A stretch of 46,919 nucleotides of DNA from Ignavibacteria bacterium (GTDB lineage Bacteria; Bacteroidota; Ignavibacteria; Kapaibacteriales; UBA4661), in the NCBI GenBank assembly GCA_014654705.1, contig JACVZY010000048.1, positions 1-46,919 of the forward strand, given 5' to 3'. Both the position numbers and the translations under genes were made by a program. Of the stretch, positions 16,101-43,099 are shown one piece after another. The notes below the pieces were generated by a model. It searched no databases. It was not told where the DNA came from and saw only the letters and a list, made by a program, of their open reading frames with translations. Each line of letters starts with the position of its first letter. Within the stretch, counting starts at the first letter, position 1.

Positions 16101-19100
16101 GTGTTGGTGCAGGGAGGCAAGAAGTTGAAATTATTCCGGGAGACGAATGCAGTGGTAATTTAGCAGGAGCTACAAAATTTACAGTTGTAGTAAGAAATCC
16201 TCAGCCCAAGATTACGAATATTAGCCTAGATTACGGTAACAACTTTGATAGCCTAACAAGTGGAAGGGTCATCCCACTTGATATAGTTAATGTTTTACGC
16301 TCACAAGGCAGCTATTTGGCTGTGATAAAACTTAAAGGAACCGGTTTTGTGTATCCTGATTTGTATAGTAAAATTACCGTTAGTTCATCGGATGTTAGCA
16401 ATAACTCACCAGCTATTCAAGCTATCAATACGAGGCTAGATGACCCAAGTAATAGACGGTTAGATAATTTGAGTGGAACAGCACTTACTGTTGGAATTTC
16501 TCTTGTGGAATTCGCCGAATTATTGCGTGAGGCACAAGCAAACAATAAAAGTATTGTGCGTCTTAAAATAAAAGTACGTAATATTATTCATGAAGATGCC
16601 GTCGGCTCAATTTTTGACATTTTCGGTAACGTTATTGAAAAATCTTCGGAAGTTGACTTAAATGTGTCCAGTAGCGGACCTTTTATTTATTCCGTACGGA
16701 ACAACAGTAGCCAAGAAACTGACCAACATCCTAACTTTTTTGTAGGCGAGTCCGGTCAACAGTGCAAAATATATGGGTTAAACCTCTTAGATACAGAAAT
16801 TCGACTTGATGGTAATATTATCCCTAAATCTAGCCTTACTTACCAAAGTGATGTAACGCTTCCCGGCACTTCCCTTAAATGTGAAACTATTACTTTCACT
16901 CTGCCAAGTCAGTTAATTACCTCAGCCCGCTCTATTGGTGGTAGAGATGTGTTCTATGTGCGAAAAGTCAATAACTCTCTTGAACGCTCCTTGAGTGATT
17001 TATTCATCAATATTGTTCATAAGAAACCCGTTATCAGCACTTGGAATGCAGGTTCTCCATTTGCATATAATAATATCTCGGCACAGCTTCAAGGTTCAAA
17101 CTTTGCAAATGCTTCGACTGCACCTACAAGTGTACAATTCAATAACAATCTTGTACCAATACAAGTTTTTAACTCTAATAACCTTAGCGCAACTATTTCT
17201 AAACTGCTTGTCAGAGCCGGTACTAATACTCTCAAGGTTATTAATCCTCCTATATTAGGAACGCTGTTCACGAATAACCTTACTTACCAATCGCGAAATC
17301 CACAATCCATCGGTGGAGGCGATACAACCATAATTGTTACGGCACAAGGTATCCAGCCGAGTAACGCACGTATTCTCAAACCCGAAAAAGTCATTTATTA
17401 CGGCAATCAAGAGAACCCTTACGATACGGTCTTTTCTTTTGCCGGAACAAATCTTTACTTTGAATCAAGGGTATTATACAACGGTTCACAAACTGATACT
17501 TGCGCCCATAATCCTACAACGGATAATAGGCTCGGTCCAAACACAAACACTGTTCTCAGTCCCAAAATCAATATTCAAGCAGCAGGATCGGATACTCTTC
17601 GGATAGTCAATCCTGACGGGCGCGGTGGTTGGCTACAATCGAACCCAATGCCATTTAGAGCATATGATGCAGCACAACTACCCAAAGCAGATAGCGCTTC
17701 GCCAAGACAACTACGACCTGCTTCAGCACCAAACGGATTTACGATATATGGTGTACGATTTGATAATCAAACCTTAGTGCGCTGTACGTTCTTCCCTCTT
17801 TCCGGTAGCCCGACGGCAGCCGATACGGTCGTCGTTGCACAAGACATTCGAGCAAATTCATCACCGACACAAATTTTTGTTCGACCACCGTCCGCGTTTG
17901 TCAATAGAGAAGGTATTCTTTCCTTCCAAGCACTCCACCCCGATACGGTTGGTGTGAAGGAGTATGCGCGAGTACATATCACTAATAGATTTCCCGTTAT
18001 TGAAAGCATTTCCGTAGAGTATGAGCAAAGAATACTCACTCCGCCCGCGATTTGCATATTCAATATCAACTGTACACCGACCGTTAGCTACGTCCCGGGC
18101 GGAAAAAGCGATACCGTGTATGCTGGTACAGGCGGTGAAAATAATCGTCAGCGCCGATTTATTATCAAGGGTCGGAATTTCAAATATAGTCTAAATGAGG
18201 ATTTGAAACTCCTTATTCCCAATCGGAAATCACAAATTATCTTTAATGGTCAGCCCTTACCTTTAGAGCAACACGAGGTTTTGTCGGATACAGAAATCGG
18301 CATTGGTTTCCCCTCCGATGTTCCCAATGATAAATTTTTAACGTTTGCGCCCGGGCAACACTCATTTAGCATGACCAATGAAGAGGGCTTACAAACTGAA
18401 TCTGTAACGAAAAAAAGGATTCTGTCACCGAAGCCAAGTATCAACGAACTCCGCGTTTTACCGAATCGTGTACTGATACCAAATAGTCTCAACAGCACAG
18501 CAGAAATACCGCTCGGCTACCGCGACTCGCTCCGTGTACGTGTGTATAGTGGCGGTGATCAAGCACCAAAAGCAAAGAATTTTGTCAAAGGTACGCGGAT
18601 AAGCGTGAACAGCCTTCCCGATAATGGTCTGGAAACGACATTCCTCGAAAACGGCACTGGTGATGATAAATATGCTCTTGATGTTAGCATACCTGCTATC
18701 TACTTGAGCGCATATTATATCAACTCCCTCGTGGTACGCAATCCGGCTACGAGTGGCAGTGATGGTGGAAATTCTGCTTCCTACTATTTCCGCACAAGAA
18801 TTACTTACCCGCTCATTAGGTTGGATTCGATTTCTCCTTCCAAAATCCCCGTTGGTGAAACCGAAACGCTTATTACTATTCGCGGAGCGAACTTCACGCC
18901 TAACACTGCGGTACGGGTACGACGTTTTGATAGTCTCCGAACCGGAAAAGATGGCAGCACAAGCCCTGCGTTCAGCGAAGAAATCTTGCCCGTTGTTCTG
19001 CCACGAATTGATTCCACAGGAATTGTTGTACGCCTCCGTGCCGGATGGCGCGACCGTATTGGCGTAGATACACTTTTTGTCTATAATCCGGGTAATTTGC

Positions 19101-19843
19101 CATCGTTAGCACAAACAGCCCTACTCACCGTCATTGCGGGACAACCTGTCATTAACCTTATTACCCCGCCTCGCTTGGATGCCTATATTCTCGGTGAGCC
19201 GACACAGGCGGATACTCTGAAAATTAGCGGCAGAAGACTTGATGAAGTTTTGCAGGTCTTGTGGAACAATACACGACCGCTCTCTATTCTCTCACAATCT
19301 GCTACCGAACTTTCGGCTTTTGTACCCGATTCTCTACATAAAGCATTAGGTAGTATTGCTATCAGGATCATAACAGCAGACTCTTTATCAGCGCAAGGTT
19401 TTGTCACTCTGGTATATCCCAAAACAGAAATAGACAGCATCCGACCAAATCCAATCGAACTGCCGGATTTACCTGCTATGGTGGCATACAAAGACGGTGG
19501 AAATCTCACCGCAGCAAACGGACAGCATAGTGAGTTCCCTGTGTATGCCGGACTGCCGACAAGCGTACAACTGTTCCCCAATGCACCCAATCCATTCGAC
19601 GGACAAACAACCATCGAGTATGCCGTTCCCGATGATGCCACACTTGGCATTGAAATCTTAGACCCGCTTGGGAGGAAGATTGCCGACCTTGTGCCGCGCA
19701 AACTGCATAAAGCAGGATACTATACTGTGCAATGGAACGCAGGACATCAAATGGCTTCGGGTGTTTATACTGCTGTGCTGCAAAGCACGGATGGTAAAGG
19801 CAAATTAACACGGAAGACTATTCGCATGACACTTATCCGATAA
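4160..19843 (+). CDS. Giant modular surface protein (Asp-box propeller, TIG and Big_1-like repeats, T9SS sorting tail)
   Basis: At 5227 residues this gene fills a third of the molecule. A signal peptide (1-25, ending SPLLAQ) is followed by an Asp-box beta-propeller (about 30-370; five to six S-T-x-x-G-x-S-W boxes) and a Gly/Ser linker with two Cys (about 380-397). Next come about 22 TIG/IPT immunoglobulin-like modules of about 100 residues (398-2560), each opening P-x-P-x-L-T-x-x-x-P and continuing L-T-x-x-G-T-x-F. Twelve Big_1/filamin-like modules follow (about 2563-3806), carrying variants of Y-R-D-x-x-G-N-L-T-D. A more divergent, AT-richer stretch with further TIG-like modules covers 3807-5130. 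The protein ends in a type A Por-secretion sorting domain (5134-5227, starting PNAPNPFD and containing ASGVYTAVL). It is likely exported by T9SS and anchored on the cell surface as an adhesin-like stalk. No cohesin, enzyme or phage-tail domain was recognised. It heads a same-strand run of eight secreted-protein genes; the next starts 44 bp downstream. No frameshift is visible. Confidence 0.9.
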   Translation: MTVLLRRFYATLLVLCALSASPLLAQSGANAPDRIVSPVRTDLPGRTVWAFATTGTGTNITTFAATDKGLYKSSGGVWTLTTLDKQSVYAVKSRRVGNVTTLLVGTDKGVLRSTDGGNTWVSPEVTTGTVSTSNIVALKKVFDIEVVQPGNGNGSGNASVWFAATDKGVYRSTNDGRSWSLVNIDRTADNNEVRGITVDGNTIIVNLWREGLWRSTNNGNSWTKLSVAGETALCRAVHAQQGTNATVWLAGSVSGNIWRSTNNGNSWTRVYQGTSAARSIVASSLSQAGIDAFTGWERPGTLGERWIYLFATTPTGIAYSLNEGLSWKLSRTPSSEKAVSLVAWNNKLFVGTEAERSIGSAVKEGAQLQNTTGGTNEYDATCTDGCSGGGSGSGSNNTAVIGAPVLTRTAPRIYLTPSTTSPGNYSIAEQLQVYGSGIFEIGGFPLDATVTRASTGQVLTRGIFYGIGDFSANGGGWFNGEQYGTFSFSTALPSDNYGIQIRNISGLSNTIFFAVGPSFDDLTFTGASANSNIASSPVTMVISGTGIDQWTQLLIDNQTPQNIVYTYRNPNGYSMTVTFVAPSDGGNHTLTLQRGTSTTQSRTWTIASPIPALSSVTTDPSPARVGQTATMTIGGQKFAADAQVRIYGPNNTVTTYNPTTRTGTTGMTVSFTPPTTPGVYAVDVVNPGASSPSEQTTYMVAYPAPTLTAIAPTRVIQNLSATLSLTGTGILTGVTEFGLSSGLSSTLNGANITFTAPAKGTYSASLSNPTTYGGGGTATLSNALTVVAPNPAPASLTLDSTRLLVNDGVRTLTLTGTGFLTGSNSDDNARTTVTLDGASITPQSINATQIILNVPTAGTNAGNHTIALTNPAVFSMASGGGGTANTTYSVAFPQPTLTSLDADSLDLNIGTSPQTLTLTGTGFVNASRVFAGARELTVSSRTATSLVITIPAGFFTEPTTVAVRVDNPVTSGVTPADGGSSATKTLTIKNLLPTLTSITPAPVIAGENATLTLAGSNFIQNTSQVFAGITALTTTVSSANSLTATLPASLVADIGTLSLTVRNTFGTDIKTSLPQSLRVIHPTPEVTSLAPVTIPAFDSTQTLTISGAKFAAASMVPTRARVVWSKNGVETPLALLPNPTATQLRVTVPASLLTELGSVTVRVQNVDSADAQGGPSASSTLTIIPPRPVVTSVMPNSATAGAGAVTVTITGAKFISSGLSILIRNAQNGFVRGLLNPTFTSNTSVSGMIPADVVTLAGNYTITVVNAANASGQGGGESTTSAPFTILNPAPTISSLTPNPATVFAPFTLDVQGTGFVSGATSVTVDGQVFTPASVTVLSSVRLTVNVAAITSAKNASVSVTNPKLNNQGGGTATTTLPVVPPVPTVSQAQGNAGSGTLTRNVAGTLTVTGTGFVTGAVIIFNGQDLTTTVVDQTTVRANVAASALPTQGVYAVAVRNPQFGGQGGGTNSPVVGVTVQNPTPTLSGISPTAVTRGNDVSITLTGNNFYDGAVAYLSGASASTFATVFVNNGSLTLSIPASSLPVAGSYSIAVKNAEPTPGFSGTRTLTVNNPAPVLSSLSVTEIEAYSNDVTLTVTGSGFENGLLAWWTPTSGNPPGSRQALPAPTSVSANSCSLTIPATLLTRAGAFSITLENVAPSLGASAPSTFTVLDRVPTLTSVAPNPIEALSGNTQITLTGDYFAPSADALWNGETLTRVSVNRTTLVATVPASRLLLATVAQITVRNPVFAGRGGGTSTPAQNLVITNPTPRLTSLTPAFTVAVTSGTGAVVTLNGTGFMPGAPMVQSFVEMSVSDSAGTPSGVWSVVPSTYQSSSRISVLLPDALLHQPVVFTLRVVSPQVNNQGGGTSEERLFTVRAPVPVLTLLVPTVATLNAQTGDVLVRVEGANFTNTSLVRVANVPVPTRYLSPTALEATVQRPASAYTVTVNNPPVNAQGGGTSSGLRLVIVNPVPTLTAVQPSTLASTGAPDTLTLKGTNFITGVKVLYNGTALAAASVTVVNDSTLRVLIPTLPLAVTTHTLAVQQPSVITGGETFGGGASQTLPLSIVFPVPTLTSLSPASTAATLNPNAALNHWTLTVRGTLFANNAVVLWNGQTLTTSVVNSTTLRAIVPNTLAHDSGTVAIRVKSNVPSAQGGGTSADSLALGLYYPVPVLTGIAPDFTTAATLTRLTLTGTNFAPGSGVQLAATFLPAVMLGDVQVISPTELQASIPASLLGTRGTYSVRVMSPPTASAQGGGQSAAKTLTAVNPAPVLTALLPNTTTASGKPWTLTLVGRSFTATSQVRYNGVLQSVVNTDFIPNVQADTLRVKLPAVPVNDTTFFLSVFNPPSTVNGQSSGGGESDTLRLTIGLPSPTITSISPTTTTATLGDRVRVWTLTINGTFFDNTAKVFVSGVEVPSEFVAATRLRVVLPDSMQFYQARRTVQVKNTPTLTSNIVNLTVQNPAPVLTAIAPSSILAGRDTTIVLTGDRFAPNSTVRLTYGTTNTFLTPTLRDSVIGLTVTVPGALTRTKGAYTLRVSNPALTPTMVPPDTVLLGGGLSAAQTLTVNAGGATSVEYIGVDTLLYAGDRLWFFTLRFRDAVGNLVDNDPVTLTYTNIDTASTNGASITGTFPMTRTSLGNYRADTLRFPVAGVYALTVDTAQTGALTVIGANRFTVLTRPAVRVEMTGLKETLSAGETQHVQVRYYDNQNNLTDNSVRPVIVTAPLSGGYRYVLGYTRMSTGVYDMETVRYTTSGNYTISFTGIDTLNITGNGVPYNRRFTVQTNPAASVRFTNVNPFLTAGNAQNRFTAAFRDTFGNLTDALTTEQLVVQYSNSTTASVGDSIVTGSITLSRLSLGTYQADVAERFPVVGSYILSVLGINSTSGTAAFRVQPAGDARVEFAGVRDTLVAGDSLTSVTLKYWDVNGNLTDNNLGDIILTKRTAPTFPARMAKTRISTGVYAVQTTQATVAGAYDLTVLGISAANTGGNRNVVVVPAPVTNVDFVITTTAMTRTGARASITATYHDRFGNLADFAGDLTLSNSEYASVATVSMTRSRLGVYTGAIVLYAPGSYAVQIAGNSANITIGGTEAFALEPGPAVRADFQNVLPAITAGGLQSAFTVLLRDRRGSPTDVWNGAMAFDAPASGVTGTLSYDWDNGNPAMYGIITATPTTFTKSGAYTLSLNGGITQHVGTRTFAVASAPAQTAYILTTPPNATVTAGGTVSVRVRFTDSFGNLAPVTSTIMLQQSGTTLATVQLAATGIKGEYTAAFRPATSGTLTFALETPVTQSALMLAGTTAITVLPTTDYRVELTGVKTQMVAGETQNPFTITYRDRYGNLTDSTVGAVIMRLVGGTERDTLQMLRLAKGEYRAEALTVTKVGTYLITISGISALNITGDSAFVVTPDVAAQAVFQNVPTAINVNANLPAFTVRYRDRFDNPVDYNGTVGFTNSASPFVQAGLTPLNAQAIPVTRTALAVSTATLTPVAVAGDYALTVQGLTTLTGTTAFTVRPLAAASAEIRNVQERVSAGDSLPPFIVLYRDKAGNVTEYNRNITLTRVGTTASLTVPMKRIAIGVSTASVATELVTPGTYRLTVPGLTTVSGATTVVVVSTNAVSKVDFWGVTPTLTAGTTQAGVTLYFRNAQDDLTDYDGTLRYKTSDGVTSGTIALTRQELGIYTAEAQTFIRAGNYTLTTDGIATTTGTRSFVVGADSLFKATFIGVTNASFVGQNIAPFTIALKDRFDNTLLLSRPVQYFEEGSAIGSTVATQTSTNGTMRVSELRFPHPGTYTLSVSDVANITGNRIIVANYGQPTITSITPPEIPIASTTTFRITGVNFTPISLVFFRNQPLITRFIDYNTLEAILPESLSTVGTNDSLYVSNYTPQVEFVSEKVGMKGSQLNAVFFDNLLIDSDDNFEGKVVTLNTIAGCAEKNKIRFTINNTQTPCFAAQSFEYPVTLVDGNQKNTIIWPVTVKFIIPASDLKTKFRCVGAGRQEVEIIPGDECSGNLAGATKFTVVVRNPQPKITNISLDYGNNFDSLTSGRVIPLDIVNVLRSQGSYLAVIKLKGTGFVYPDLYSKITVSSSDVSNNSPAIQAINTRLDDPSNRRLDNLSGTALTVGISLVEFAELLREAQANNKSIVRLKIKVRNIIHEDAVGSIFDIFGNVIEKSSEVDLNVSSSGPFIYSVRNNSSQETDQHPNFFVGESGQQCKIYGLNLLDTEIRLDGNIIPKSSLTYQSDVTLPGTSLKCETITFTLPSQLITSARSIGGRDVFYVRKVNNSLERSLSDLFINIVHKKPVISTWNAGSPFAYNNISAQLQGSNFANASTAPTSVQFNNNLVPIQVFNSNNLSATISKLLVRAGTNTLKVINPPILGTLFTNNLTYQSRNPQSIGGGDTTIIVTAQGIQPSNARILKPEKVIYYGNQENPYDTVFSFAGTNLYFESRVLYNGSQTDTCAHNPTTDNRLGPNTNTVLSPKINIQAAGSDTLRIVNPDGRGGWLQSNPMPFRAYDAAQLPKADSASPRQLRPASAPNGFTIYGVRFDNQTLVRCTFFPLSGSPTAADTVVVAQDIRANSSPTQIFVRPPSAFVNREGILSFQALHPDTVGVKEYARVHITNRFPVIESISVEYEQRILTPPAICIFNINCTPTVSYVPGGKSDTVYAGTGGENNRQRRFIIKGRNFKYSLNEDLKLLIPNRKSQIIFNGQPLPLEQHEVLSDTEIGIGFPSDVPNDKFLTFAPGQHSFSMTNEEGLQTESVTKKRILSPKPSINELRVLPNRVLIPNSLNSTAEIPLGYRDSLRVRVYSGGDQAPKAKNFVKGTRISVNSLPDNGLETTFLENGTGDDKYALDVSIPAIYLSAYYINSLVVRNPATSGSDGGNSASYYFRTRITYPLIRLDSISPSKIPVGETETLITIRGANFTPNTAVRVRRFDSLRTGKDGSTSPAFSEEILPVVLPRIDSTGIVVRLRAGWRDRIGVDTLFVYNPGNLPSLAQTALLTVIAGQPVINLITPPRLDAYILGEPTQADTLKISGRRLDEVLQVLWNNTRPLSILSQSATELSAFVPDSLHKALGSIAIRIITADSLSAQGFVTLVYPKTEIDSIRPNPIELPDLPAMVAYKDGGNLTAANGQHSEFPVYAGLPTSVQLFPNAPNPFDGQTTIEYAVPDDATLGIEILDPLGRKIADLVPRKLHKAGYYTVQWNAGHQMASGVYTAVLQSTDGKGKLTRKTIRMTLIR

Positions 19844-19887: not shown

Positions 19888-21147
19888 ATGAAGGACTGTA
19901 TAGTCAAAGTATTGGTGGTTTTTGTGCTTGGATTGCTTACTCTATCAAGGATGTATGCACAAGACACAACTATTACGATTTATGGAAAAAAGTTTGCGCC
20001 GGGTGTAATTGTGAAAATCAATAACCATCTCGTTGACAGCACCAATATCAAACGCGATAGCGCACAGCCGTCGAGAATTTTGTATGTGAAATTTCTTCTG
20101 TCTTGGCTCAATAAACCTGCTTCTGCCACTGTAGTAGCAAAAGATGTAGGAGCGAGTTTAACCAGCGATGAAGTTGAAAATACTGTTAGTGTAGGGAACC
20201 CAGGCACTGCACCAACATTATTCACTATTTATACAACTCCACTCTCGCCCAAGATTGTTCTAAAAACAGAGGAAGGTAAAATTCTTGGCTCACAGGAAAT
20301 GCCCATACTTCAAGCAACATCACTTTTTGAATCTGATACAACCTTGGTTGTGAGACTTGAGTATTCAAATTTCAAACCGAATTCAACGTTATTCTTTAGA
20401 ACAAGGACGACCACGCCCCCGTTTGAAATACTTGATACAAATAATATACGACTTTCTAATGGTTTTAATCTCCCTTCAACCGAGGGTTTTATCATTATCC
20501 ACGTTCGATTCCATGCACAAACAGGAATATTACGTGATACAATTAAGGTTGACCTCAAAAAAACAAATAATACATCAACAACTATTCACTCTTTTCAATG
20601 TACGGGAAAACGGCGCATAATGATTCTTCCCTTCTTTACACAGAAAAGCAGCGAGCCTTTCATTAAAATTCCTACTATTGGTGATGTTAATACAGTTTAT
20701 GAGAATGTTGTACAAGCACAATTGGAACCATCGCCTGCCGATTATCTCCGCCAATGTCTAACAATTCTCAACAATCAAATTCTTAGCGAAACAACAATAC
20801 AAGACCCTTTATTTTACTCACAGTTTGAATTTGTACAGCTACCAACATTGATTCCTTACAATGAGGCATCAGTAAAAACCAAAACTCTTCACACAGACAT
20901 TGACGCTTTACCAACATTGCCAAAAGTACAGGAGTTAGACAATCAAAGAATCCATTGTGTACTTATGCTTGTTAATTCTGATGAAGCACAATATAGAGCT
21001 TTTGCTACCTTGCCTCTTGGCTGTAACCCTTGTATTCTCCCTAAATATATAGTTATTGAAGCTAAGTACACACATACTCTAATTGATGCTTCACTTATGC
21101 AAGTAGAAAGTGCGTTTTTTGATGATATAAAAAATCTGTTTCGGTAA
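19888..21147 (+). CDS. Secreted TIG-domain protein, cassette copy 1 (protein A1)
   Basis: A 419-residue protein with a signal peptide (about 1-25, ending MYAQ) and one TIG/IPT-like module (about 26-115: ITIYGKKFAPG, a DSTNI turn, SWLNKP, then VSVGNP). It is related to the modules of the giant protein just upstream. The rest (about 120-419) is of unknown fold. It ends in a short motif, P-K-Y-I-V-I-E-A-K-Y, then an acidic/aromatic helix, which is shared with protein A2 (23106-24413). Between A1 and A2 the TIG part is about four-fifths identical by eye while the middle has diverged strongly. No T9SS tail or lipobox is visible, so it is probably periplasmic, or released or held by a partner. First gene of a three-gene cassette (A-B-C) that is repeated in tandem. 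No Shine-Dalgarno sequence. Confidence 0.8.
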   Translation: MKDCIVKVLVVFVLGLLTLSRMYAQDTTITIYGKKFAPGVIVKINNHLVDSTNIKRDSAQPSRILYVKFLLSWLNKPASATVVAKDVGASLTSDEVENTVSVGNPGTAPTLFTIYTTPLSPKIVLKTEEGKILGSQEMPILQATSLFESDTTLVVRLEYSNFKPNSTLFFRTRTTTPPFEILDTNNIRLSNGFNLPSTEGFIIIHVRFHAQTGILRDTIKVDLKKTNNTSTTIHSFQCTGKRRIMILPFFTQKSSEPFIKIPTIGDVNTVYENVVQAQLEPSPADYLRQCLTILNNQILSETTIQDPLFYSQFEFVQLPTLIPYNEASVKTKTLHTDIDALPTLPKVQELDNQRIHCVLMLVNSDEAQYRAFATLPLGCNPCILPKYIVIEAKYTHTLIDASLMQVESAFFDDIKNLFR

Positions 21148-21219
21148 ACTGATACGCTACTAACCTTTTATCCTTTGAATAGGTAAATACCCATAAAAAC
21201 CATTTTTCCGAATATCAAC

Positions 21220-22182
21220 ATGATAACAAGCAAAAATATATCGTTGTTTGTGAGCGTCGCTTTACTATTTACAATATTGACAACTCATGCTCTCATTGCT
21301 CAAGTTTCATCAAAAGACTCTGCTAGCGCCATTCAAGCTATTAAGACAAAACCTGTTCTGAAAGAGAATCAATACCTTATCCGTTCAGGAACAGAAGAAA
21401 AGATTATCACGGACGTTTTTACTGCTCGTGACGGGTTTCAAAAAACACTTGTCCAAAAACATGGTGTAGAGAAAGAATTTAACGAGATTTATAACACCCT
21501 CCTTCGGGGTGTTATTCAACAGGATAAGTCTGTAACTAACAGCTACAAGAACCTCTTGGAAGATCCCCAAACGCTGCAAGAACTCACACCTGAAGAAGCG
21601 AGAAAAGTATCATGGCGACTTTCTACTGAAGGCTATACTATGGAAACAATTAACCAGTTTCAACAGATTAGTGGTCTAAATCTGATAAATATTTTTGCAC
21701 GCGGTACTTCTGACGTATTACTGAGGAGGACGCTTTTTGCATCTCAAATTGTTATTGGAACAATTGATAGTATATTTTTTGATAGCTCTATTCAAGATGG
21801 TGAAGACCATTCCATGCTTATCAGCGTCAAAGAAACTCTCAAAGGTGATACAGCAATTAAACATCTAATTATACGAGAAAGTGGACGCTCTCATGCTTTT
21901 ATTCCTAGAAAGAAAGCAACATATCTCCTGTTTCTTGAAAAAAGTAGGTATGAATTCTCTACCCTACAATCTCACGGACAACCGCAAACAGGAATTGTTA
22001 AATCTCTTTCTAATGCTTCAGACATCAATCTGCTGCCCCACTTTTCTACGCAACGGGAAAACCTCTTTCTAGCATTAGAAAATAAACCAATTCCGCCTTT
22101 AGATAAAGCTATACTCTTAAAACGTGTCTATGATATGTGTAAAGAATATGCTCCGGTGTTTCAAAAACTGAACTCACGATAG
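21220..22182 (+). CDS. Secreted protein of unknown function, cassette copy 1 (protein B1)
   Basis: A 320-residue protein with an N-terminal signal peptide (about 1-28, ending ALIAQ). No known domain was recognised. The segment around residues 150-225 (an L-R-R-x-L-x-x-S/Q-x-V-I-G-x-I-D-S-I-F core, then an L-K-G-D box and a H/N-x-I-I-R strand) is clearly shared with protein B2 (24477-25499). They are therefore paralogues in equivalent positions of two tandem cassettes. The core is predicted to be a beta-sandwich or barrel; the flanking parts are helical and charged. It sits 72 bp after A1 and 36 bp before the metalloprotease C1, and is probably co-transcribed with them. It could be a protease chaperone, inhibitor or adaptor, but nothing in the sequence proves this. 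Confidence 0.75.
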   Translation: MITSKNISLFVSVALLFTILTTHALIAQVSSKDSASAIQAIKTKPVLKENQYLIRSGTEEKIITDVFTARDGFQKTLVQKHGVEKEFNEIYNTLLRGVIQQDKSVTNSYKNLLEDPQTLQELTPEEARKVSWRLSTEGYTMETINQFQQISGLNLINIFARGTSDVLLRRTLFASQIVIGTIDSIFFDSSIQDGEDHSMLISVKETLKGDTAIKHLIIRESGRSHAFIPRKKATYLLFLEKSRYEFSTLQSHGQPQTGIVKSLSNASDINLLPHFSTQRENLFLALENKPIPPLDKAILLKRVYDMCKEYAPVFQKLNSR

Positions 22183-22218
22183 TTCTCATCCCATTGCCCA
22201 TTTCTTACTACTACTACT

Positions 22219-23058
22219 ATGTTCAAAAACCTTAGCAAATATCTCATTTCTCTCACTATTGGTATGCTTGTTGGAGTTTTTTTTGTGAATCCGGTTGTCA
22301 CCTACGCGCAACAAGCAATTCCTGATGTCCCAACGGTGAAACATTATTTTCCTTATTCTAATGGCACGATTTCCGATGCCAGCTATGGTATTGGTATGCG
22401 TAAATGGTACAGCCTGAATGACACAACGATTAATTTTTATGTTATTCCGCTCGGAGAAAAGTTATGGAATGGTACTGACAGTATTGATATTGCTTGGGAT
22501 GTATTCAGTAAAGCAGTTCAAGTTTGGAATAGCCAAAATATCGGCATATCTCTTAATATAGCTGGTTTTGCTGCTTCGACTGATGAAATAAAACAGACAA
22601 TGACAAAAAACTTATTAGGTTTTGGTAATACTATTACCTCTGCAGAAGACAAACAATATGGTGCAACAAGCCCATATAACCGTAAATATGTCATATATGC
22701 TGATAAATATCACTACGAAATAATACGGACTGTTCACCTTGAACTTAATATTGACCTTTGGAAAGAAAAGGTTTTAGTTTTACAAACCCCTGCTGCTGCT
22801 ACCTCTACCAAATATCCTGATGCAAAGCCGTTGAATGCCTATGCCGTAGCCGTTCACGAACTCGGTCATGTTCTTGGGTTAAAAGATAACTGCGGCGGCA
22901 TACAGTCAATTATGGGTTCTCCCGATTGGGACGGAGACGGAAAAGCATATAATGTTCTCGGTACAAATGCCCTTCCTGAAAGAGATAAATTGATGATTCA
23001 TGCCTTGTACCCTAAAATTACACCCGGGCGAGAGAGTGAGACTCGTTTACCAAAGTAA
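22219..23058 (+). CDS. Secreted matrixin-like zinc metalloprotease, cassette copy 1 (protein C1)
   Basis: A 279-residue protein with a signal peptide (about 1-31, ending TYAQQ) and a metzincin active site HELGHVLGLKDN. H213 and H217 would bind zinc, E214 would be the catalytic base and the final Asp the third ligand, as in some bacterial matrixins that replace the third His. A Met-turn (QSIMGS) follows about 17 residues after the zinc motif. The N-terminal part contains a matrixin-like pattern in which a helix (VFSKAVQVWNSQNI) precedes the active site. No pro-peptide cysteine switch was recognised. It probably cleaves proteins in the periplasm or outside the cell. The partner genes A1 and B1 lie just upstream and the second cassette begins 47 bp downstream. 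C2 is its tandem paralogue, with the standard third His. Confidence 0.85.
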   Translation: MFKNLSKYLISLTIGMLVGVFFVNPVVTYAQQAIPDVPTVKHYFPYSNGTISDASYGIGMRKWYSLNDTTINFYVIPLGEKLWNGTDSIDIAWDVFSKAVQVWNSQNIGISLNIAGFAASTDEIKQTMTKNLLGFGNTITSAEDKQYGATSPYNRKYVIYADKYHYEIIRTVHLELNIDLWKEKVLVLQTPAAATSTKYPDAKPLNAYAVAVHELGHVLGLKDNCGGIQSIMGSPDWDGDGKAYNVLGTNALPERDKLMIHALYPKITPGRESETRLPK

Positions 23059-23105
23059 CATGAATGGTACACAATCCTGAAATGGTAATACTATTATCTA
23101 TGACT

Positions 23106-24413
23106 ATGAAACATTTATTTCTCGGCATATCTGCATTTTTCTTCATCTGGCTGATTACCCTGCCTCTCTATGCACAAGACACGACCATTACCATTTATGG
23201 TAAGAAGTTTGCGCCAGACGTGATTGTGAAAATTAATGGAAAACCCGTTGATAGCACCAATATCAAACGCGATAGTGCTCAACCTTCGCGGATTTTGTTT
23301 GTCAAATTTCCTCTGTCATGGCTCAATAAACCCGGGGCTAGTACCGTAATAGCAAAAGGAGCAGAGGCGAGTTTAACCAGTGATGAAGTCGGAAATATTG
23401 TCAGCGTAGAAAATCCCGGCACTGCGCCAACATTATACACTATTTATACAAAACCACCTCAACCCTCAATAGCGATTGTCAATGTGGATTCAACCAAGCC
23501 ATTAGAACGGCAACGTTCTTTTGTTGCTCTTAATCAGACAAATACCATTCCTTTACAAATTCAATATCGGAACCTACCGAAGCAAAATCTTTTAGTGATG
23601 AGGTTGTCATTTGATGCACCATTATCCAATTCTGCGTTATTTCAGATTTATGATAGTACCATGAAGACAATTCTCACAGGTGCTCCTGATATTTTTCTTG
23701 ATATGGCAAAACCCTCGAATAGGCTATCATTCAACGTACAATTCAAATCACCATCTACGTTACCGACAGACACCATGACGAGAAGTATCCGTTTACGAGT
23801 CCAAATACTAGATGGAAGTAATTTGCAAACCGTCATCCAGCAAACTATTCGACTGGAATTAGTTCCCATCAGAATATTTTCCATTCGCACCATAGCAAAA
23901 AATGATGTAGAAGAGTTTTATCAAGAAAATTCAAACCTTACCAACCTGACGCGGTTTAGCGGCATTAGTAATTTTTTCAATAGTGCATTATTACTTCTCA
24001 ATAGCAGATTGGCTAGAGCACAGGATAGTATCATTGCCTTGAATAATGTTGCATCAAAATTCGCACAAAGCCGTTTTGTCATAAAGCAAACGACCGAGGT
24101 TTCCACGACAAATCTGCCTCTCCAAACTTCAGCAAACGGCAACATTCACAAACAAATTGATGATGTACAAAACTTTTACCAACAATTTGTTACTTTAGGT
24201 CAAAACGAGGCATTTTTAATTATATCGAATGCTGCTGGCAGATATAGCTTTAGTCCCTACCAAGCTATTGCTTCTTCTTGTGATACCGACAGACTGCCGA
24301 GTTATATGGTAGTGGAAGCCAAATATGCACGGGAATATATTAACCCCGGTACAAACTCTATCCACCCTAACTTTTGGGAGGATTTACGCTTATTGCTCAA
24401 TGCAATACCCTGA
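23106..24413 (+). CDS. Secreted TIG-domain protein, cassette copy 2 (protein A2)
   Basis: A 435-residue paralogue of A1. The start was placed at ATG 23106-23108, because this gives a normal signal peptide (about 27 residues, ending LYAQ) that aligns with A1. Earlier in-frame ATGs (23064, 23082, 23100) would add an atypical hydrophilic front. The TIG-like module (about 26-118) is nearly the same as in A1, with the shared KKFAPxVIVKIN and NIKRDSAQPSRIL stretches. The central region (about 120-390) shares little with A1. The C-terminal motif P-S-Y-M-V-V-E-A-K-Y and the closing amphipathic helix are again shared. This pattern, constant ends with a variable middle, suggests a docking or trafficking front joined to a variable functional part. 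Confidence 0.8.
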   Translation: MKHLFLGISAFFFIWLITLPLYAQDTTITIYGKKFAPDVIVKINGKPVDSTNIKRDSAQPSRILFVKFPLSWLNKPGASTVIAKGAEASLTSDEVGNIVSVENPGTAPTLYTIYTKPPQPSIAIVNVDSTKPLERQRSFVALNQTNTIPLQIQYRNLPKQNLLVMRLSFDAPLSNSALFQIYDSTMKTILTGAPDIFLDMAKPSNRLSFNVQFKSPSTLPTDTMTRSIRLRVQILDGSNLQTVIQQTIRLELVPIRIFSIRTIAKNDVEEFYQENSNLTNLTRFSGISNFFNSALLLLNSRLARAQDSIIALNNVASKFAQSRFVIKQTTEVSTTNLPLQTSANGNIHKQIDDVQNFYQQFVTLGQNEAFLIISNAAGRYSFSPYQAIASSCDTDRLPSYMVVEAKYAREYINPGTNSIHPNFWEDLRLLLNAIP

Positions 24414-24476
24414 TACCCTTTTTATCTTCTTTTGATTCACCCTACTTTGATACATCATTCTATTTTGACAACTATT

Positions 24477-25499
24477 ATGCACAAATTCATCTCATCTTTC
24501 TTGATACTCTTGGCTTTATGCTTTAGTTCGGCATCGGCACAAGATAAAAAACAAGCATTACAATCATTCTTCACGAGAATTCAATTTCCCGATAGCAACG
24601 CGAAAGAATTCGACCGCGTGGAACTGCTTCAACTCTATAACAGCGTATCGCAAAAAAATTACAGTACGAAAAAACAAGAGTGCGATAATATTTTGGATTT
24701 GTATAAGCAGAAGTTACTCAATCAAAGTGGGAATGTGGCTCTTGCAAAAAAATATAAATCATTGCTTCAAAGTTTTACCATACCATGGGAGCAAACACAA
24801 AAAGACCTTGCTCACAAATCATGGGAATTAGTGGCACGAGATTATACTTTGGAAAATATGAATGAACTCTACACTACAACAGGTATAAATGCCTTTGCAG
24901 TAATGAATTATGGTCAGTTTGCTGAATCAACAGTATTGAGAAATTCCTTGATAGTGATTGGCAGGATAGATTCTATTTTTACAGGAGATTTTAATGATTT
25001 CCATCAAGTTTCTTACAGCGTCAGTATTTCAAAGGTATTAAAGGGGGATAAGAGCTTAAAAAATGTTATCATTCGCACTGACGACGAAGAGCTTGTAACA
25101 AACGGCAATGGGAATACATATATAATGTCGTATAACTTAAGCTATCATTTCCCTTCGCACCTTGAAAAATTGATTGTTGGTCAAGAGTATTTACTGTGTT
25201 TATCAAAACTTGAATATGAACGAAAAGTTACTCAATTACAACTTGCTTCTGAGCAAAGTAAACAAGAGTATCAATTTAGAAATGACAAAATTACACAAGA
25301 AAAGCGTAATCTTTGTTATGCCAGAAATGTAAGTCTCCAACTGAGCCAAAGTAATAATGAACAAAGTACCGATAGCATCTTACAAGAGAGAGCAAAAAGA
25401 AATAAAAAGTCGATACAAGAGATACAAGATTTGTGCAAAAAACTCAGTAACTTTTTTGAAAAAATGAACCGAGAAAATACCCTGCCAAATCAACACTAA
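24477..25499 (+). CDS. Secreted protein of unknown function, cassette copy 2 (protein B2)
   Basis: A 340-residue paralogue of B1. The start is ATG 24477-24479, followed by a clear signal peptide (about 21 residues, ending SASAQ); upstream in-frame codons would add a hydrophilic leader. The shared core (about residues 145-200: V-L-R-N-S-L-I-V-I-G-R-I-D-S-I-F, then V-L-K-G-D and V-I-I-R) aligns with B1. The C-terminal third (about 245-335) is strongly charged with heptad-like spacing and probably forms a coiled coil; B1 lacks this in the same form. It lies 63 bp after A2 and 50 bp before C2. No function can be assigned from sequence. Confidence 0.75.
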   Translation: MHKFISSFLILLALCFSSASAQDKKQALQSFFTRIQFPDSNAKEFDRVELLQLYNSVSQKNYSTKKQECDNILDLYKQKLLNQSGNVALAKKYKSLLQSFTIPWEQTQKDLAHKSWELVARDYTLENMNELYTTTGINAFAVMNYGQFAESTVLRNSLIVIGRIDSIFTGDFNDFHQVSYSVSISKVLKGDKSLKNVIIRTDDEELVTNGNGNTYIMSYNLSYHFPSHLEKLIVGQEYLLCLSKLEYERKVTQLQLASEQSKQEYQFRNDKITQEKRNLCYARNVSLQLSQSNNEQSTDSILQERAKRNKKSIQEIQDLCKKLSNFFEKMNRENTLPNQH

Positions 25500-25549
25500 A
25501 GGTTATTCTCGCTATCATTCTATTTATCAACAAAGACCCTTTTACCGTT

Positions 25550-26425
25550 ATGAAAACAAAGCCTCTATGTCTTTTATCGTTAGCATTTATCCTCATATTT
25601 TCGGCAAGTAATAACGTTTGCTACTCTCAAGCTGCTTCCAATACTACCTTCGCCGATTATCACCCACCTTATTCAGTTGGTAAGTGGGAAATACAAGAAA
25701 ATGGTATCACTACAATTCCTTGCTATATTCAACGAGCTAATATTACCAGATCCTTTAGGGGTAATGCTGTTGATATTGCAGAAATCGCATTTACTCAAGG
25801 CATTGAATTCTGGAACGCTATTTTACAAGCATCCAATATCCCAATACGCTTAAACGGTATCATAACCAGCAATAAAGAATCCGATGCTTTTAATAATATG
25901 AGTACAGAAAATATTTTTATTATAAGTAATAAGATAACACCAATAATTCCACAAACAGGTGACATAGTGTATGGTTTTACTTCAATTATCGAAAAAAAGT
26001 ATGACTCAGTATTTGTGGGCAGACAAAAATTCATCAAATACAAGGCAAATCACATAGAATTAAACCGTGATGCGTTTGACAAAGACTACCTACGCATTGG
26101 GGTTGGAGATCCTACGCGCACTACAACAACTAACCCAAAGCAAAACATTTGCTACGTAGCTGCCCATGAAATTGGTCATTTTCTTGGTATCAATCGCCAT
26201 TTTGTAAGTTCAAATAGTGGTACAATCATGCACGTTGCCAACATTCTCCCACCATCTGCATTGATAGATTGTGATTGTGATAACATTGTGAGTAAAGTAA
26301 ATAGTTTTGTATCGTTGGAGAAAGATTTGATAAAAGGCTTATACCCTGCTCTTTTTCTGACATCACAACACCAAAACGATGATTGTATTCCACAAAGCAC
26401 CAGACCCGCACCAGTAAAGCCCTGA
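25550..26425 (+). CDS. Secreted matrixin-like zinc metalloprotease, cassette copy 2 (protein C2)
   Basis: A 291-residue protein with a signal peptide (about 1-27, ending CYSQ) and a complete metzincin motif HEIGHFLGINRH (H206, H210 and the final His as zinc ligands, E207 as base). It is followed by a Met-turn in GTIMH. The pattern matches matrixins rather than thermolysins. It is the positional and sequence paralogue of C1, but the two differ widely outside the active site and use a different third ligand (His here, Asp in C1). This suggests divergence after an old duplication. A Cys-rich stretch (DCDCDN) lies near the C-terminus. It is followed after only 6 bp by the propeller-protein gene. 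Confidence 0.85.
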   Translation: MKTKPLCLLSLAFILIFSASNNVCYSQAASNTTFADYHPPYSVGKWEIQENGITTIPCYIQRANITRSFRGNAVDIAEIAFTQGIEFWNAILQASNIPIRLNGIITSNKESDAFNNMSTENIFIISNKITPIIPQTGDIVYGFTSIIEKKYDSVFVGRQKFIKYKANHIELNRDAFDKDYLRIGVGDPTRTTTTNPKQNICYVAAHEIGHFLGINRHFVSSNSGTIMHVANILPPSALIDCDCDNIVSKVNSFVSLEKDLIKGLYPALFLTSQHQNDDCIPQSTRPAPVKP

Positions 26426-26431
26426 TACATT

Positions 26432-28843
26432 ATGATAATGCGTTTTTTAATAATTGCTATACTTTTTCTGTTCCCTTTGTCTCTCTTCGGGCAGTGGTAC
26501 AGAGAAGTAGACAAAAGCGGAAGTCTTCAATGGACAAATATTTCCGGTCCAATAAATGGCAAAATCTCCAGTATTGTGAAGCAGGGTGATACACTTTTTG
26601 CTGCAATAAATACACTTGGTGTACTCTTTTCTACCAATGGCGGGCAATCGTGGGAACGTTCCGGCATGACCACTCCCGCAGAAGAACTTGCTTCTAGTGG
26701 CACATCTTTAACAACTATTTCGGGTAGAGTTCCTTACATATCCAACAATGCAGGGGCTTCATGGCTACCTGCTAAGATTGATACGACATTAGGGTACTAT
26801 GCAAGCGTCATCCTTGCTATGAACAAACAACGGGGCGTAATACTATGCAATTATTATGATTACTCTAATCGCTTTCCAATCGTTAGTAGTACCTTATTTG
26901 CTACGAATAACGGCGGAAGTGATTGGTATAGAGTAGGAAAAATACCGACAACCGGAAATGCAGGTATCACATTTATCGGAGATATACTTGTCATTGGCGG
27001 AGGAAAAATGACAGATTCCACGCATATTTTCTCTTCTGCCGACATGGGTAAGACATGGCGAAAATGTACTCCACTTCCCGAAGGAGTCATAAAACTATAT
27101 GCTCACAAATCTATTCTTTATGCAACAACCCATAATGATAATTCTGTTGTCAATCCCGACCCTATAAACCTATTCGTTTCGCTGGATACAGGAAAATCAT
27201 GGCGGCGCTGCACATCACCACATGATATTGTCTTTCAAGTTCCCTTTCCACTCCCAACACCGGAACAAAAAGAAAACTCATCTCTACCATTTAATGTTAT
27301 CCAAGGAATAACAGGAATACCTGCTGTCACATTTGATAAAAATGGCGATTTGCTGATAGGGCTACGGAATAATATTATTTACCGCTCGGCAGACACAGGG
27401 CGCTCGTGGCAGTTAGTTAACTCTTATCTATGGAAAAGTCGGGCATACCTGACACATACAATCTTTGCTACTGATAATGCTATTTTTCTTGCGGGTCGCG
27501 GCATACATCGTTGTACTTACAAGGGTGAGAATTTTGAACGAGTATTTGCGCCTGCATTTAACCAGCCGGGATGGTTTACACAGTGCCAATCGGGTTTGAG
27601 GGATATTGCTGTTGTCGGTTTAGCAAAGAAAATTTACTTTCTCATTGGGCAAGAGGGATTATATCGCTCATTCGATGGTGTTGTTTGGCAACCTGTTTTT
27701 CCTAAAATGTACCGATGGAAAGCAAATAGTGATATAGATCCCCTCAATTTTACGAATCCACTGCTTTATTCATCGGAATTCGGAAGTTTAGACGTTGATT
27801 ATTGCGTTACTGCCATTGCGGGAAATGATGAAGCAATCGTAGCAATCACCAAAAGCGGAACTATTCTACGTTCCTACGATAGAGGCACAACTTGGTTACC
27901 TGTGCGCAAAGAATCACGCCTTGCTGCCGAAAACGCTTTGCTGACTTTACAAAATTCTACTTTTCTTGCCGTAACGAATGGAGCTGCTTATCGTTCAACA
28001 GATTATGGTACTACATGGCAAGAAATATCGTCTCTTAAAAACTTCGGCATAAGTGCATTTGGCAAAAACGCTATAACTGCTGTGACGGCAAACAATTCTG
28101 CTTTCTTTGCCGCAACAGAACGAGAGATATTTCGCTCCCTTAATAATGGCATAACATGGTCAAAGCATACAGTTTCTTTGGATATTACTAATATTAGAGG
28201 AATTGCGGCGGCAAAAACGGTTATCTATACAGCTACGGATAAAGGGATATTCCGTTCATTAGATAATGGGATATCATGGTTAGAGTCTAAAAATGGATTT
28301 GATGATAACAACATTACGGAAATTCTTGCTGTTGATAATATCGCAGTAGCAATAGTCAATAATCTTCATACTTTTTTTTCAATGGATTATGGAAAAAACT
28401 GGATACAGACAGCAAGCTATAATTCACTTTATTCGTCATCTTCTACTACATTTGAGTCAATTAAGGCAATCGTAACCAACAACACATCCATTCTTGCTTT
28501 GACAAAAGAAAATTCACTTTATCAAGCAGAAATTCCTGTGAATGTTGGGTATATCTATTTACAAAATTATCGTGGTGATACCACTCATTCGCGGGTAGGA
28601 GTTGCTCCAAATCCCACAAGTGATGCAGCAAGTTTTGCATGGATGCAGAATAGTACGGAAACTGTCAGTATTGGTATTTATGATACTTTGGGCAAGTGCG
28701 TCGGTGGTTTTTTTAACCATCCTTATACCTCTGGTTGGTATCGGTATATTTGGGATACATCCGATATGGCTGTTGGTGTATATTTTTATCGGTACGTTAT
28801 TGGTGACCGTGTATATTCGGGTATGATTGCTGTAAAGAGATAG
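26432..28843 (+). CDS. Secreted Asp-box beta-propeller protein with T9SS sorting tail
   Basis: An 803-residue protein with a signal peptide (about 1-21, ending LFGQ). About nine Asp-box (BNR) motifs of the form S-x-D/N-x-G-x-x-W are spread over residues 60-700 (for example STNGGQSW, SADTGRSW, STDYGTTW, SLDNGISW), which is the signature of sortilin/Ycf48-like propellers. The last 80 residues begin VAPNPTSD and contain a GVYFYRY strand, as in type A Por-secretion sorting domains. It is therefore probably displayed on the surface through T9SS, like the giant protein whose N-terminal propeller it resembles. It closes the eight-gene run and ends 11 bp from the convergent parB stop. No terminator is evident in the gap. 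Confidence 0.88.
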   Translation: MIMRFLIIAILFLFPLSLFGQWYREVDKSGSLQWTNISGPINGKISSIVKQGDTLFAAINTLGVLFSTNGGQSWERSGMTTPAEELASSGTSLTTISGRVPYISNNAGASWLPAKIDTTLGYYASVILAMNKQRGVILCNYYDYSNRFPIVSSTLFATNNGGSDWYRVGKIPTTGNAGITFIGDILVIGGGKMTDSTHIFSSADMGKTWRKCTPLPEGVIKLYAHKSILYATTHNDNSVVNPDPINLFVSLDTGKSWRRCTSPHDIVFQVPFPLPTPEQKENSSLPFNVIQGITGIPAVTFDKNGDLLIGLRNNIIYRSADTGRSWQLVNSYLWKSRAYLTHTIFATDNAIFLAGRGIHRCTYKGENFERVFAPAFNQPGWFTQCQSGLRDIAVVGLAKKIYFLIGQEGLYRSFDGVVWQPVFPKMYRWKANSDIDPLNFTNPLLYSSEFGSLDVDYCVTAIAGNDEAIVAITKSGTILRSYDRGTTWLPVRKESRLAAENALLTLQNSTFLAVTNGAAYRSTDYGTTWQEISSLKNFGISAFGKNAITAVTANNSAFFAATEREIFRSLNNGITWSKHTVSLDITNIRGIAAAKTVIYTATDKGIFRSLDNGISWLESKNGFDDNNITEILAVDNIAVAIVNNLHTFFSMDYGKNWIQTASYNSLYSSSSTTFESIKAIVTNNTSILALTKENSLYQAEIPVNVGYIYLQNYRGDTTHSRVGVAPNPTSDAASFAWMQNSTETVSIGIYDTLGKCVGGFFNHPYTSGWYRYIWDTSDMAVGVYFYRYVIGDRVYSGMIAVKR

Positions 28844-28854: not shown

Positions 28855-29658
28855 TTACCGTACCAAGAGTGCTTCAATCTCTTTCAAAATTGCCAACCTT
28901 GTTTTCTTGTCTGCTTTTTGTAAGGTGTTTTCAAGAGCCTTCACGTGCTTCTTTGCTTGATTGAGTACCTCGTTTTTCGATACTAATAGTTTTTCTCCCT
29001 TTTTTCGTGGAGGTATTACGGAAGAATTTTCTATCAATGCTGTGCGATGTTTTTGCAAATCTTTCCGAACCGTTTCGACATTTTGCCCTGTATGGCTCGC
29101 AACAATCGGCGCTGATAGAGGCATTGATGTATCACCAATATCAAACTGGATATTTCCAGATTGATTTTTATAGGTCTTGCTTTTTCTGTCGCCACCACGA
29201 ACATCTTGCAAAACACGATCGTCAAAATTGGGGTAAAGGCGTTTGTACAATTCTATTCTCTGCTCCGGCTTGAGATGCCGACGAAGTAGATTATCTTTAA
29301 TGACAAAATGCTGTTCTTGCTCAGAACTCAAATCGTCTTCCACATACTGCACAGGGACGCTTCTTAAACCCAGTATTTGTGCAACCCGCAAACGATTATG
29401 CCCCGCCAGTAGCGTTCCATCTTCCTTTGCAATGATAGGAACTAAAATACCACGTTCACGAATATCGCTTGTCAAGGTATCAAAATATTGCGAAGATTCT
29501 TCTTGAAATAGTGTGCTGTTAAGCGGATTCACTCGCAGCATTGCAAGTGTTACCTCTTTGACTTCGGAAAGTTTTAATCCGGTGGATGTATTTTGTTCAT
29601 TCGCCTCACTTTTTTTGAGAAGTGATCCCAATCCGGTTCGTTGCGGTTTTTTTTTCAT
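28855..29658 (-). CDS. parB: ParB-like partition protein
   Basis: A 267-residue ParB/Spo0J-type protein. The N-terminal nuclease-like fold contains the phosphate-binding box as AGHNRLRVA (about residues 90-98), preceded by the L-x-x-D-I-R-E-R-G-I-L-x-P-I strand-helix. A central helix-turn-helix region follows (about 120-205), then a Lys/Glu-rich helical C-terminus (about 225-267) for dimerisation. It should load onto a centromere on this molecule; no canonical parS (TGTTTCACGTGAAACA) was found, so the site is probably one of the repeat arrays at 35.8-39.2 kb. The ATG at 29656-29658 overlaps the parA stop by 4 bp, so the two are translationally coupled. Confidence 0.92.
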   Translation of the reverse strand: MKKKPQRTGLGSLLKKSEANEQNTSTGLKLSEVKEVTLAMLRVNPLNSTLFQEESSQYFDTLTSDIRERGILVPIIAKEDGTLLAGHNRLRVAQILGLRSVPVQYVEDDLSSEQEQHFVIKDNLLRRHLKPEQRIELYKRLYPNFDDRVLQDVRGGDRKSKTYKNQSGNIQFDIGDTSMPLSAPIVASHTGQNVETVRKDLQKHRTALIENSSVIPPRKKGEKLLVSKNEVLNQAKKHVKALENTLQKADKKTRLAILKEIEALLVR

Positions 29659-30407: not shown

Positions 30408-30423
30408 TACTCTCGCTCCTTTT

Positions 30424-30440
30424 CTGAGCCTGTCGCTCAG
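30424..30440. promoter_or_regulatory. Inverted repeat in the parA leader
   Basis: A perfect 6-bp inverted repeat (ctgagc at 30424-30429, gctcag at 30435-30440, 5-bp centre) lies just upstream of the parA Shine-Dalgarno sequence. It could be an operator for autoregulation by ParA or ParB, or an mRNA hairpin that controls translation. The small size keeps confidence low. Confidence 0.35.
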
Positions 30441-30565
30441 TTGTATAGTTGTGTAGTTCTCGCCAAGCAATCATGCGCACAGTGTTGCACATAAGCCCGC
30501 ACAAAACTACGAAATTTGTTCTCGTCATCGTTGGTTTTTCGCCATGTTCTGCCTTTTTTACTCAC
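30437..30565 (-). CDS. Possible small basic protein upstream of parA
   Basis: A 42-codon frame with a GTG start at 30563-30565, in the 200-bp gap between the primase-helicase stop and parA. The product is rich in Lys/Arg/Asp/Asn in its first half (K-K-G-R-T-W-R-K-T-N-D-D-E-N-K-F). It ends inside the inverted repeat ahead of parA. It has no recognisable family and no strong ribosome binding site. It may be a leader peptide or chance. Confidence 0.2.
   Translation of the reverse strand: MSKKGRTWRKTNDDENKFRSFVRAYVQHCAHDCLARTTQLYN
30502..30509 (-). promoter_or_regulatory. Possible -7 box of the parAB promoter
   Basis: On the minus strand this reads TAGTTTTG, which matches the Bacteroidota TAnnTTTG box. 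The start would fall about 90 nt upstream of the parA ATG. No good TTG element was found at the normal distance, so support is partial. Confidence 0.35.
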
Positions 30566-43046: not shown

Positions 43047-43089
43047 AAGCGGTAGAACGGTTTCAAACCGTCCTACCGCTTTGCTTTTT
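43047..43089 (+). terminator. Strong intergenic hairpin, terminator-like
   Basis: A 17-bp stem with one mismatch (43047-43063 with 43065-43081) starts 13 bp after the preceding stop and is followed by a T-rich tail (tgcttttt). The endolysin ATG follows at 43100. Confidence 0.7.
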
Positions 43090-43099
43090 GAGAATACCC

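Follow-up and report, generated by a model that had tools for sequence, protein, structure and literature searches.

A duplicated gene unit for TIG-like, NTR-family and metzincin-like proteins behind a variable-tip giant surface protein on a putative circular plasmid

What might a twice-repeated set of three secreted-protein genes do when it is placed directly behind the gene of a giant surface protein? We addressed this question for contig JACVZY010000048.1 of an Ignavibacteria bacterium; the whole stretch of 46,919 nucleotides is referred to as the window. Its forward strand carries six genes in the order A1-B1-C1-A2-B2-C2, between the gene of the giant and that of a propeller protein. A1 and A2 (19888..21147 and 23064..24413) encode TIG-headed secreted proteins, B1 and B2 (21220..22182 and 24477..25499) members of a family with a predicted NTR/TIMP-type fold, and C1 and C2 (22219..23058 and 25550..26425) metzincin-like proteins. 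The module noted in the first-pass annotation of this DNA is confirmed and takes a more specific form: a duplicated, plasmid-located TIG-like/NTR-family/metzincin-like unit follows a giant with a variable tip. New relative to that annotation are the circular replicon, the NTR/TIMP-type core of B, the variable tip and the metallopeptidase motifs and hydrolase-like genes linked to related giants. We propose, with a probability of about 0.42, that the unit would be a plasmid-borne, swappable, duplicated surface-enzyme cassette serving the giant.

All three pairs match by BLASTP (3e-55 for A, 4e-14 for B and 6e-14 for C), which confirms the tandem order and paralogy described in the first-pass annotation and is most simply explained if a unit of three genes was duplicated in tandem. 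All six frames are open, and the order has been retained despite strong divergence. The eight genes of the same-strand run from giant to propeller are separated by 5-72 bases, including 36 bp between B1 and C1, 50 bp between B2 and C2, and 63 bases between A2 and B2. The last value takes B2 from its ATG at 24477, a TTG start at 24432 being possible; A2 has an alternative ATG at 23106, the start previously assigned to it. Consistent with the signal peptides already noted on all six products, a script found in 6/6 a hydrophobic N-terminal stretch that closes with AQ or SQ, and a simple pattern search detected a lipobox in none of the six.

The B proteins were named by neither Pfam, NCBIfam nor PADLOC scans, and profile searches of the PDB with B returned nothing credible. 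A two-sequence B profile matched 4 of 99 genomes and a six-sequence profile 5 of 395 genomes of the phylum, the window's own genome included in both counts. B-family members were counted at ten loci, which represent nine distinct genes because two of them (L072 and L081) hold the identical protein. One of the ten (L029, on contig C37 of genome G007) is doubtful: its match covers 37 positions at the edge of a contig, in an unconfirmed frame, and was not reproduced by the six-sequence profile. By exact sequence identity, the homologues include two Balneolaceae bacterium proteins and one Rhodohalobacter sulfatireducens protein; the host shares a phylum with the Rhodohalobacter and Balneolaceae genomes in the genome database, and NCBI places both of these in Balneolota, within the FCB (Fibrobacteres-Chlorobi-Bacteroidetes) group.

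Comparison of the ten-sequence B alignment with 12 bacterial proteins found by the TIMP family PF00965 gave an hhalign probability of 86 (P 4.8e-6, 81 columns). The PF00965 set derives from 16 matches (9 above the family cut-off), of which three with internal stops were dropped, leaving 13 open reading frames (ORFs), and one near-duplicate was omitted; three of the 12 (L090, L093 and L095) score below the cut-off. In the controls, 200 column shuffles never did as well (best P 0.16), reversing the alignment yielded P 0.72, and P was 0.067-0.075 for three unrelated alignments. Among subsets of the B family, the six genus members yielded P 2.3e-4, the three Balneolaceae-type members P 3.3e-6 and the single protein L075 P 0.0026; B1 and B2 alone reached only P 0.018. 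The profile alignment places the NTR core of B1 at approximately residues 164-245 (21709..21954, forward strand).

Structure prediction pointed in the same direction. An AlphaFold model of B1, aligned with B2 only, had a predicted local distance difference test (pLDDT) score of 41 and was set aside. The Rhodohalobacter homologue, aligned with the two Balneolaceae proteins and B1/B2, was modelled with a pLDDT of 78 and a predicted template modelling (pTM) score of 0.75. A Foldseek search with this model returned agrin NtA as the top match (E 7.5e-4), next the NTR domains of PCOLCE1 and complement, then TIMP-2 at rank 11 and TIMP-1 complexes lower. VIA-align 2 superposed it on agrin NtA (1jb3) with Z 10.4 and a root-mean-square deviation (rmsd) of 3.8, and on N-TIMP-3 (3cki) with Z 9.2 and rmsd 3.2, each over 112 aligned residues; in this program, top Z values of 7 to 8 are common for models that lack a clear match. 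The complement C3/C5 proteins in these comparisons share the NTR fold and are not taken as a guide to function. The alignments and the predicted model thus indicate that the B family has the core fold of the TIMP/NTR families (PF00965, agrin NtA, PCOLCE1 NTR and complement C345C). The fold would apply to B1 and B2 because they are homologous to the modelled Rhodohalobacter protein.

The C proteins matched the M10/matrixin family PF00413 at 19.6 bits (C1, E 9e-4) and 19.3 bits (C2, E 1e-3), under the 24-bit cut-off, and their best PDB profile matches were karilysin, archaemetzincin and matrix metalloproteinases (MMPs), at E 0.01 or worse and mostly around the zinc motif. C1 carries HELGHVLGLKD (22855..22887, forward strand) and, with M232 as Met-turn candidate, fits the pattern HEXXHXXGXXH/D plus Met-turn; the corresponding motif of C2 is HEIGHFLGINRH (26165..26200, forward strand), with M227 as Met-turn candidate. 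Compared with matrixins and other metzincins (karilysin, MMPs, snapalysin, M12B and M43), C1 thus shares a zinc motif and a Met-turn candidate and C2 a Met-turn candidate; they differ in scoring below the Pfam cut-off, in the Asp that serves as third ligand in C1, and in the third ligand of C2 being off register. A first contig scan with C1 found no relative, and a single-query search with C2 matched only its own genome among 61. At E 0.01, a C profile weakly matched 8 additional genomes among 99 and another site in the own genome, the best match being a 395-residue open frame in genome G012 (7.1e-6); these matches span 28-79 of 310 positions near the zinc motif, and we did not accept them as homologues of C.

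Similarity within the A pair is uneven: a TIG-like block has 76 identical residues among 94 aligned, against 56 of 286 (~20%) elsewhere. The block (19954..20242 in A1 and 23169..23457 in A2, both forward) comprises 289 nt at 81% DNA identity and starts at the end of the signal peptide. Its TIG scores, 11.8 bits for A1 (E 0.25) and 16.0 bits for A2 (E 0.012), lie below the 20.9-bit cut-off, so that the TIG and matrixin labels given to A and C in the first-pass annotation correspond to weak matches, all under the Pfam thresholds. Fourfold sites are identical at 20/36 positions in the head versus 4/15 in the rest (Fisher 0.07), and identical codons number 50/75 versus 25/56 (Fisher 0.013), in both cases with an uncertain tail alignment; on this pattern, the A head may have undergone gene conversion recently. 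The A tail had no relatives in the family-library and genome searches made.

Immediately upstream of the module lies the gene of the giant (4160..19843, forward strand), a TIG/filamin-like surface protein of 5227 aa with a sortilin-type N-terminus (Sortilin-Vps10 4.7e-9; TIG 1.1e-9) and a weak C-terminal tail of the type IX secretion system (T9SS) kind, whose Por_Secre_tail match (0.0068, 17.1 bits) falls below the 27-bit cut-off. Its orthologue in congener G001 lies on contig C362, and this contig starts at the equivalent of window position 11,557. The two proteins are 89-94% identical per 200 residues from approximately residue 2600 to 3400; beyond this point identity drops to 0.67, 0.34 and ~0.25 and climbs to 0.36 near the end, the last 344 residues being still recognisably related (33%). 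At the DNA level, a single block aligned (11557-14721, 83%), and fine windows fall from 0.80-0.92 to ~0.6 at 14451-14500 and to ~0.5 or less from ~15,000. No other window DNA aligned with C362 at E 1e-10. The variable tip defined by this drop occupies 14450..19843 (forward strand), and a near-end segment of the giant matched 2 of the 13 genomes searched, its own and G001. The tip and the downstream genes differ from those of G001 and may have been exchanged, or may diverge fast, between species.

A segment of the stalk matched 5 of 13 genomes, on nine contigs including the window. At five of the eight other stalk loci (L064-L070 and L031), a giant-type ORF contains HExxH (L064, L066, L067, L068 and L069), and at three of the eight the strict pattern HExxHxxGxx[HD] is present; in L067 the motif is located in the ORF preceding the one with the stalk match. 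Pfam recognised metallopeptidase families in four of the five motif segments, three of M12B type and one of M43 (3.1e-17), and none in L064. In these five loci, TIG-headed matches lie within the giants' own repeats, save for one 126-residue TIG ORF of L069 that is interrupted by the contig end. A ParA related to that of the window (30% identity, 3.8e-33) is encoded near the giant TIG protein of L067, in congener G007 (13502-14413, reverse strand); giants may often ride on partition-bearing elements.

Other congener giants are followed by separate genes. In L031, L065 and L070, the gene after the giant encodes a member of the TIG-headed family and the next one a hydrolase-like protein; L114 shows the end of a giant (1.9e-18 to the window giant, and related to others too), a TIG-headed gene and a hydrolase, and L112 a TIG-headed gene, a hydrolase-like and a PQQ-like gene, with any giant outside the visible contig. 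A TIG-headed gene thus precedes a hydrolase-like gene in five loci. In L113, the end of a PQQ-like ORF and a small protein are followed by a TIG-headed gene (299-2726, forward strand), so that enzyme cassettes may be tandemly repeated in congeners too. A search of 61 genomes with a profile of two congener TIG-headed proteins gave matches in three at E 1e-4 and added L112, L113 and L114. BLAST links the six congener TIG-headed proteins to one another, and likewise the hydrolase-like proteins; the TIG-headed proteins of L065, L070 and L114 exceed the Pfam TIG cut-off and those of L031 and L112 do not. A1 matched the L031 protein at 2.6e-7 across residues 1-64, signal peptide included, and the A-like heads resemble TIG repeats of the related giants. 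The hydrolases of L031 and L114 retain GHSMGG and alpha/beta-hydrolase Pfam matches, only that of L031 above the cut-off. In the short contigs visible, the motif-in-giant and TIG-headed-gene layouts never coincided.

The metallopeptidase motifs within some giants and the TIG-headed and hydrolase-like genes behind others suggest that an enzyme is tied to the giant. The window follows the layout of giant, TIG-headed protein and enzyme, except that C occupies the enzyme position and B is an extra gene. To this extent the surface-system idea of the first-pass annotation gains ground, as a link between module and giant.

As a separate observation, the hydrolase-like proteins of L065 (12174-13781), L070 (1721-3394) and L112 (1833-3494) lack GHSMGG and gave no Pfam match at 0.1; those of L070 and L112 contain no GxSxG and that of L065 two, neither aligned to GHSMGG by eye. 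They are possible pseudo-enzymes.

The last 51 bases of the window (46869-46919) repeat the first 51 (1-51) exactly, and an ORF of a RecE-like exonuclease family runs across the junction. We therefore regard the contig as circular, with a length of 46,868 bp, and, from family matches in the subset of ORFs scanned, take it as a plasmid with ParB-like and ParA partition genes (28855..30470, reverse strand). Other replicon genes encode a helicase/Toprim protein and a protein resembling replication initiators. Among ten window proteins scanned with PHROGs, none matched capsid or terminase families and one matched a tail lysozyme/endolysin type; the product of 43088-43861 (forward) resembles phage baseplate hub/tail lysozyme and endolysin families. 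The propeller protein that ends the same-strand run (26432..28843, forward) is of BNR/sortilin type. The giant and propeller named as flanks in the first-pass annotation do enclose the module, the T9SS sorting tail of the propeller scoring just at the cut-off (27 bits). As a search query the propeller was uninformative because of its many paralogues, with 27 matches in its own genome.

Several further genes of the replicon resemble defence systems. A pair at 218-1940 (reverse) is of the cyclic-oligonucleotide-based anti-phage signalling system (CBASS) type, with a SMODS cyclase (Pfam 2.9e-49) and a SLATT_4 effector with two transmembrane segments (7.9e-63). The gene at 41233-42318 (reverse) matches the anti-phage model PD-T7-5 (7.8e-83), and that at 44265-45599 (forward), with PADLOC matches to PDC-M60C (7.9e-52) and a PN-superfamily effector (1.9e-17), is a further candidate. 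A HEPN protein (35157-35564, forward; 2.7e-14) adjoins a small ORF (34822-35160) with the look of a nucleotidyltransferase by eye and no Pfam match, possibly forming a toxin-antitoxin pair.

The closest precedent that we found limits the first-pass statement that no system of this make-up has been described, which was too strong. According to a published report (PMC8235301), mobile elements of Listeria carry adjacent genes for a secreted metzincin, Mtz (HEXXHXXGXXH/D plus Met-turn), and a protein with a TIMP-like domain, Tim; Tim is a substrate of Mtz, and the two together make cells more sensitive to lysis. This is the directly relevant work in the literature searched, in which we did not find the A-B-C make-up described. 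The window resembles this system in that metzincin-like and NTR/TIMP-type genes adjoin each other, twice, on a circular ParA/ParB replicon, with C below the matrixin cut-off. It differs in gene order (mtz-tim in Listeria, B before C here), in that Tim is a lipoprotein and B has no lipobox, and in the added TIG-headed gene, tandem duplication and giant. Listeria is moreover Gram-positive and the window's host belongs to the phylum of Rhodohalobacter; the likeness drawn here is one of layout and fold. By analogy, B could act like Tim, after cleavage.

Contact-dependent inhibition (CDI) and Rhs systems are polymorphic surface/toxin systems with a conserved stalk and a variable tip. The giant's abrupt switch from stalk to variable tip, with differing genes behind, recalls them. 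Here, the route is apparently T9SS, the cargo genes are separate ORFs, and toxin or immunity roles are not claimed.

In the cassette model that we favour, the giant would form a long secreted stalk, with exchange or quick divergence between species affecting its tip and the genes downstream, and each A-B-C repeat would provide one enzyme set. A, with its TIG-like head and own tail, would be an adaptor associating with the TIG-rich giant; C would be a secreted metzincin. B would bind C as its NTR-fold partner, either holding the protease in check or being cleaved by it, as Tim is by Mtz. Tandem duplication would have given two sets, in which B, C and the A tail diverged and the A head stayed alike; the sets probably differ in specificity because of that divergence. 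The model starts from the gene anatomy, the paralogy, the NTR-type core of the B family, the circular replicon, the variable tip and the metallopeptidase motifs or domains of related giants as seen in the data; the docking of A, the B-C interaction, the substrates and the location at the surface are what we infer. A fuller version, which we consider rather unlikely, would make this a polymorphic surface-enzyme system with a giant T9SS-type stalk, an exchangeable tip and TIG-adaptor cassettes bearing either a metzincin and NTR partner or an alpha/beta-hydrolase. In that version, the NTR partner would act as the cognate regulator and keep the producer safe up to the release of the protease or the cleavage that frees the NTR part, which would make the pair a bacterial equivalent of MMP and TIMP.

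Several observations weigh against the cassette model. TIMPs chelate the protease zinc with a free N-terminal Cys (CxC). B1 has no such N-terminus, its sole Cys being residue 307, and a helical region precedes the NTR part of the modelled homologue; in B2, numbered from the TTG start, the first Cys past the signal-peptide region falls at position 84. Because the N-terminal Cys is missing and the core is not N-terminal, B cannot act exactly as a TIMP. The strict metzincin motif was found near B relatives at none of the ten loci, the doubtful one included (2.1-19.5 kb), and near TIMP-family genes at none of 13 (~3.2 kb each, with 1.5-kb flanks), the strict pattern being one that would also miss C2; plain HExxH occurred at two B-family loci (L079 and L080), in both in an unrelated-looking 377-residue ORF type. 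C2 has Arg where the third ligand is expected and His one residue later, and may therefore be altered or inactive. The metallopeptidases of the giants resemble C over only 17 columns around the zinc motif. A1 and A2 join the congener TIG-headed family clearly only through the N-terminal head, and the profile of that family had no match in the window's own genome at E 1e-4. Neither Por_Secre_tail nor CHU_C matched A, B or C at E 1 in Pfam, so that these proteins may stay in the periplasm. Finally, the A-B-C triple was seen in one of 99 genomes, its own.

These points bear differently on the alternatives. B and C might be a self-contained protease-inhibitor or protease-substrate pair, like Mtz-Tim, acting on the cell's own envelope or on neighbours, with the giant incidental. 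The adjacency of B and C in both repeats, their lack of a T9SS tail and the mobile-element precedent of a protease that cuts its partner and a pair that sensitises cells to lysis (PMC8235301) all suit this idea, which is doubtful but has the most to commend it among the rivals. It leaves aside that A heads both repeats and that related giants repeatedly carry metallopeptidase motifs, and B relatives elsewhere are unpaired. That they turned up without A and C also goes in part against the first-pass annotation, which had named such scattering as a refuting outcome. The same scatter of the B family, together with the single occurrence of the triple and the irregular zinc motif of C2, would fit an accessory cluster of secreted genes that was duplicated once on the plasmid and is drifting with no joint function. 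We think this quite unlikely, given that gene order and six open frames survived strong divergence, that the A head is retained at 81%, and that a TIG-headed and hydrolase-like gene pair recurs beside giants.

Least probable, in our view, is the earlier idea that C matures the giant or other T9SS cargo by proteolysis, either in the periplasm or at the outer membrane, with scaffolding and regulation left to A and B. The short-spaced same-strand run with the giant agrees with such a role, as do signal-peptide-like N-termini on A, B and C that come with no T9SS tail. Congener G001, however, has no full-length C match and shares the 89-94% stalk stretch; as far as a genome in 570 contigs can show, that stretch at least would not need C.

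With the NTR/TIMP-type fold adjoining a metzincin-like gene, B, formerly called unknown, becomes testable. The locus would carry the pairing of metzincin and TIMP-like genes, reported for mobile elements of Gram-positive bacteria, over to a plasmid from a very distant lineage. It also suggests a general plan for the giants of this genus, in which the stalk is conserved, the tip varies and exchangeable enzyme genes follow that of a TIG-headed protein. Should B control C, the system would bear on bacterial counterparts of the MMP-TIMP logic of animals.

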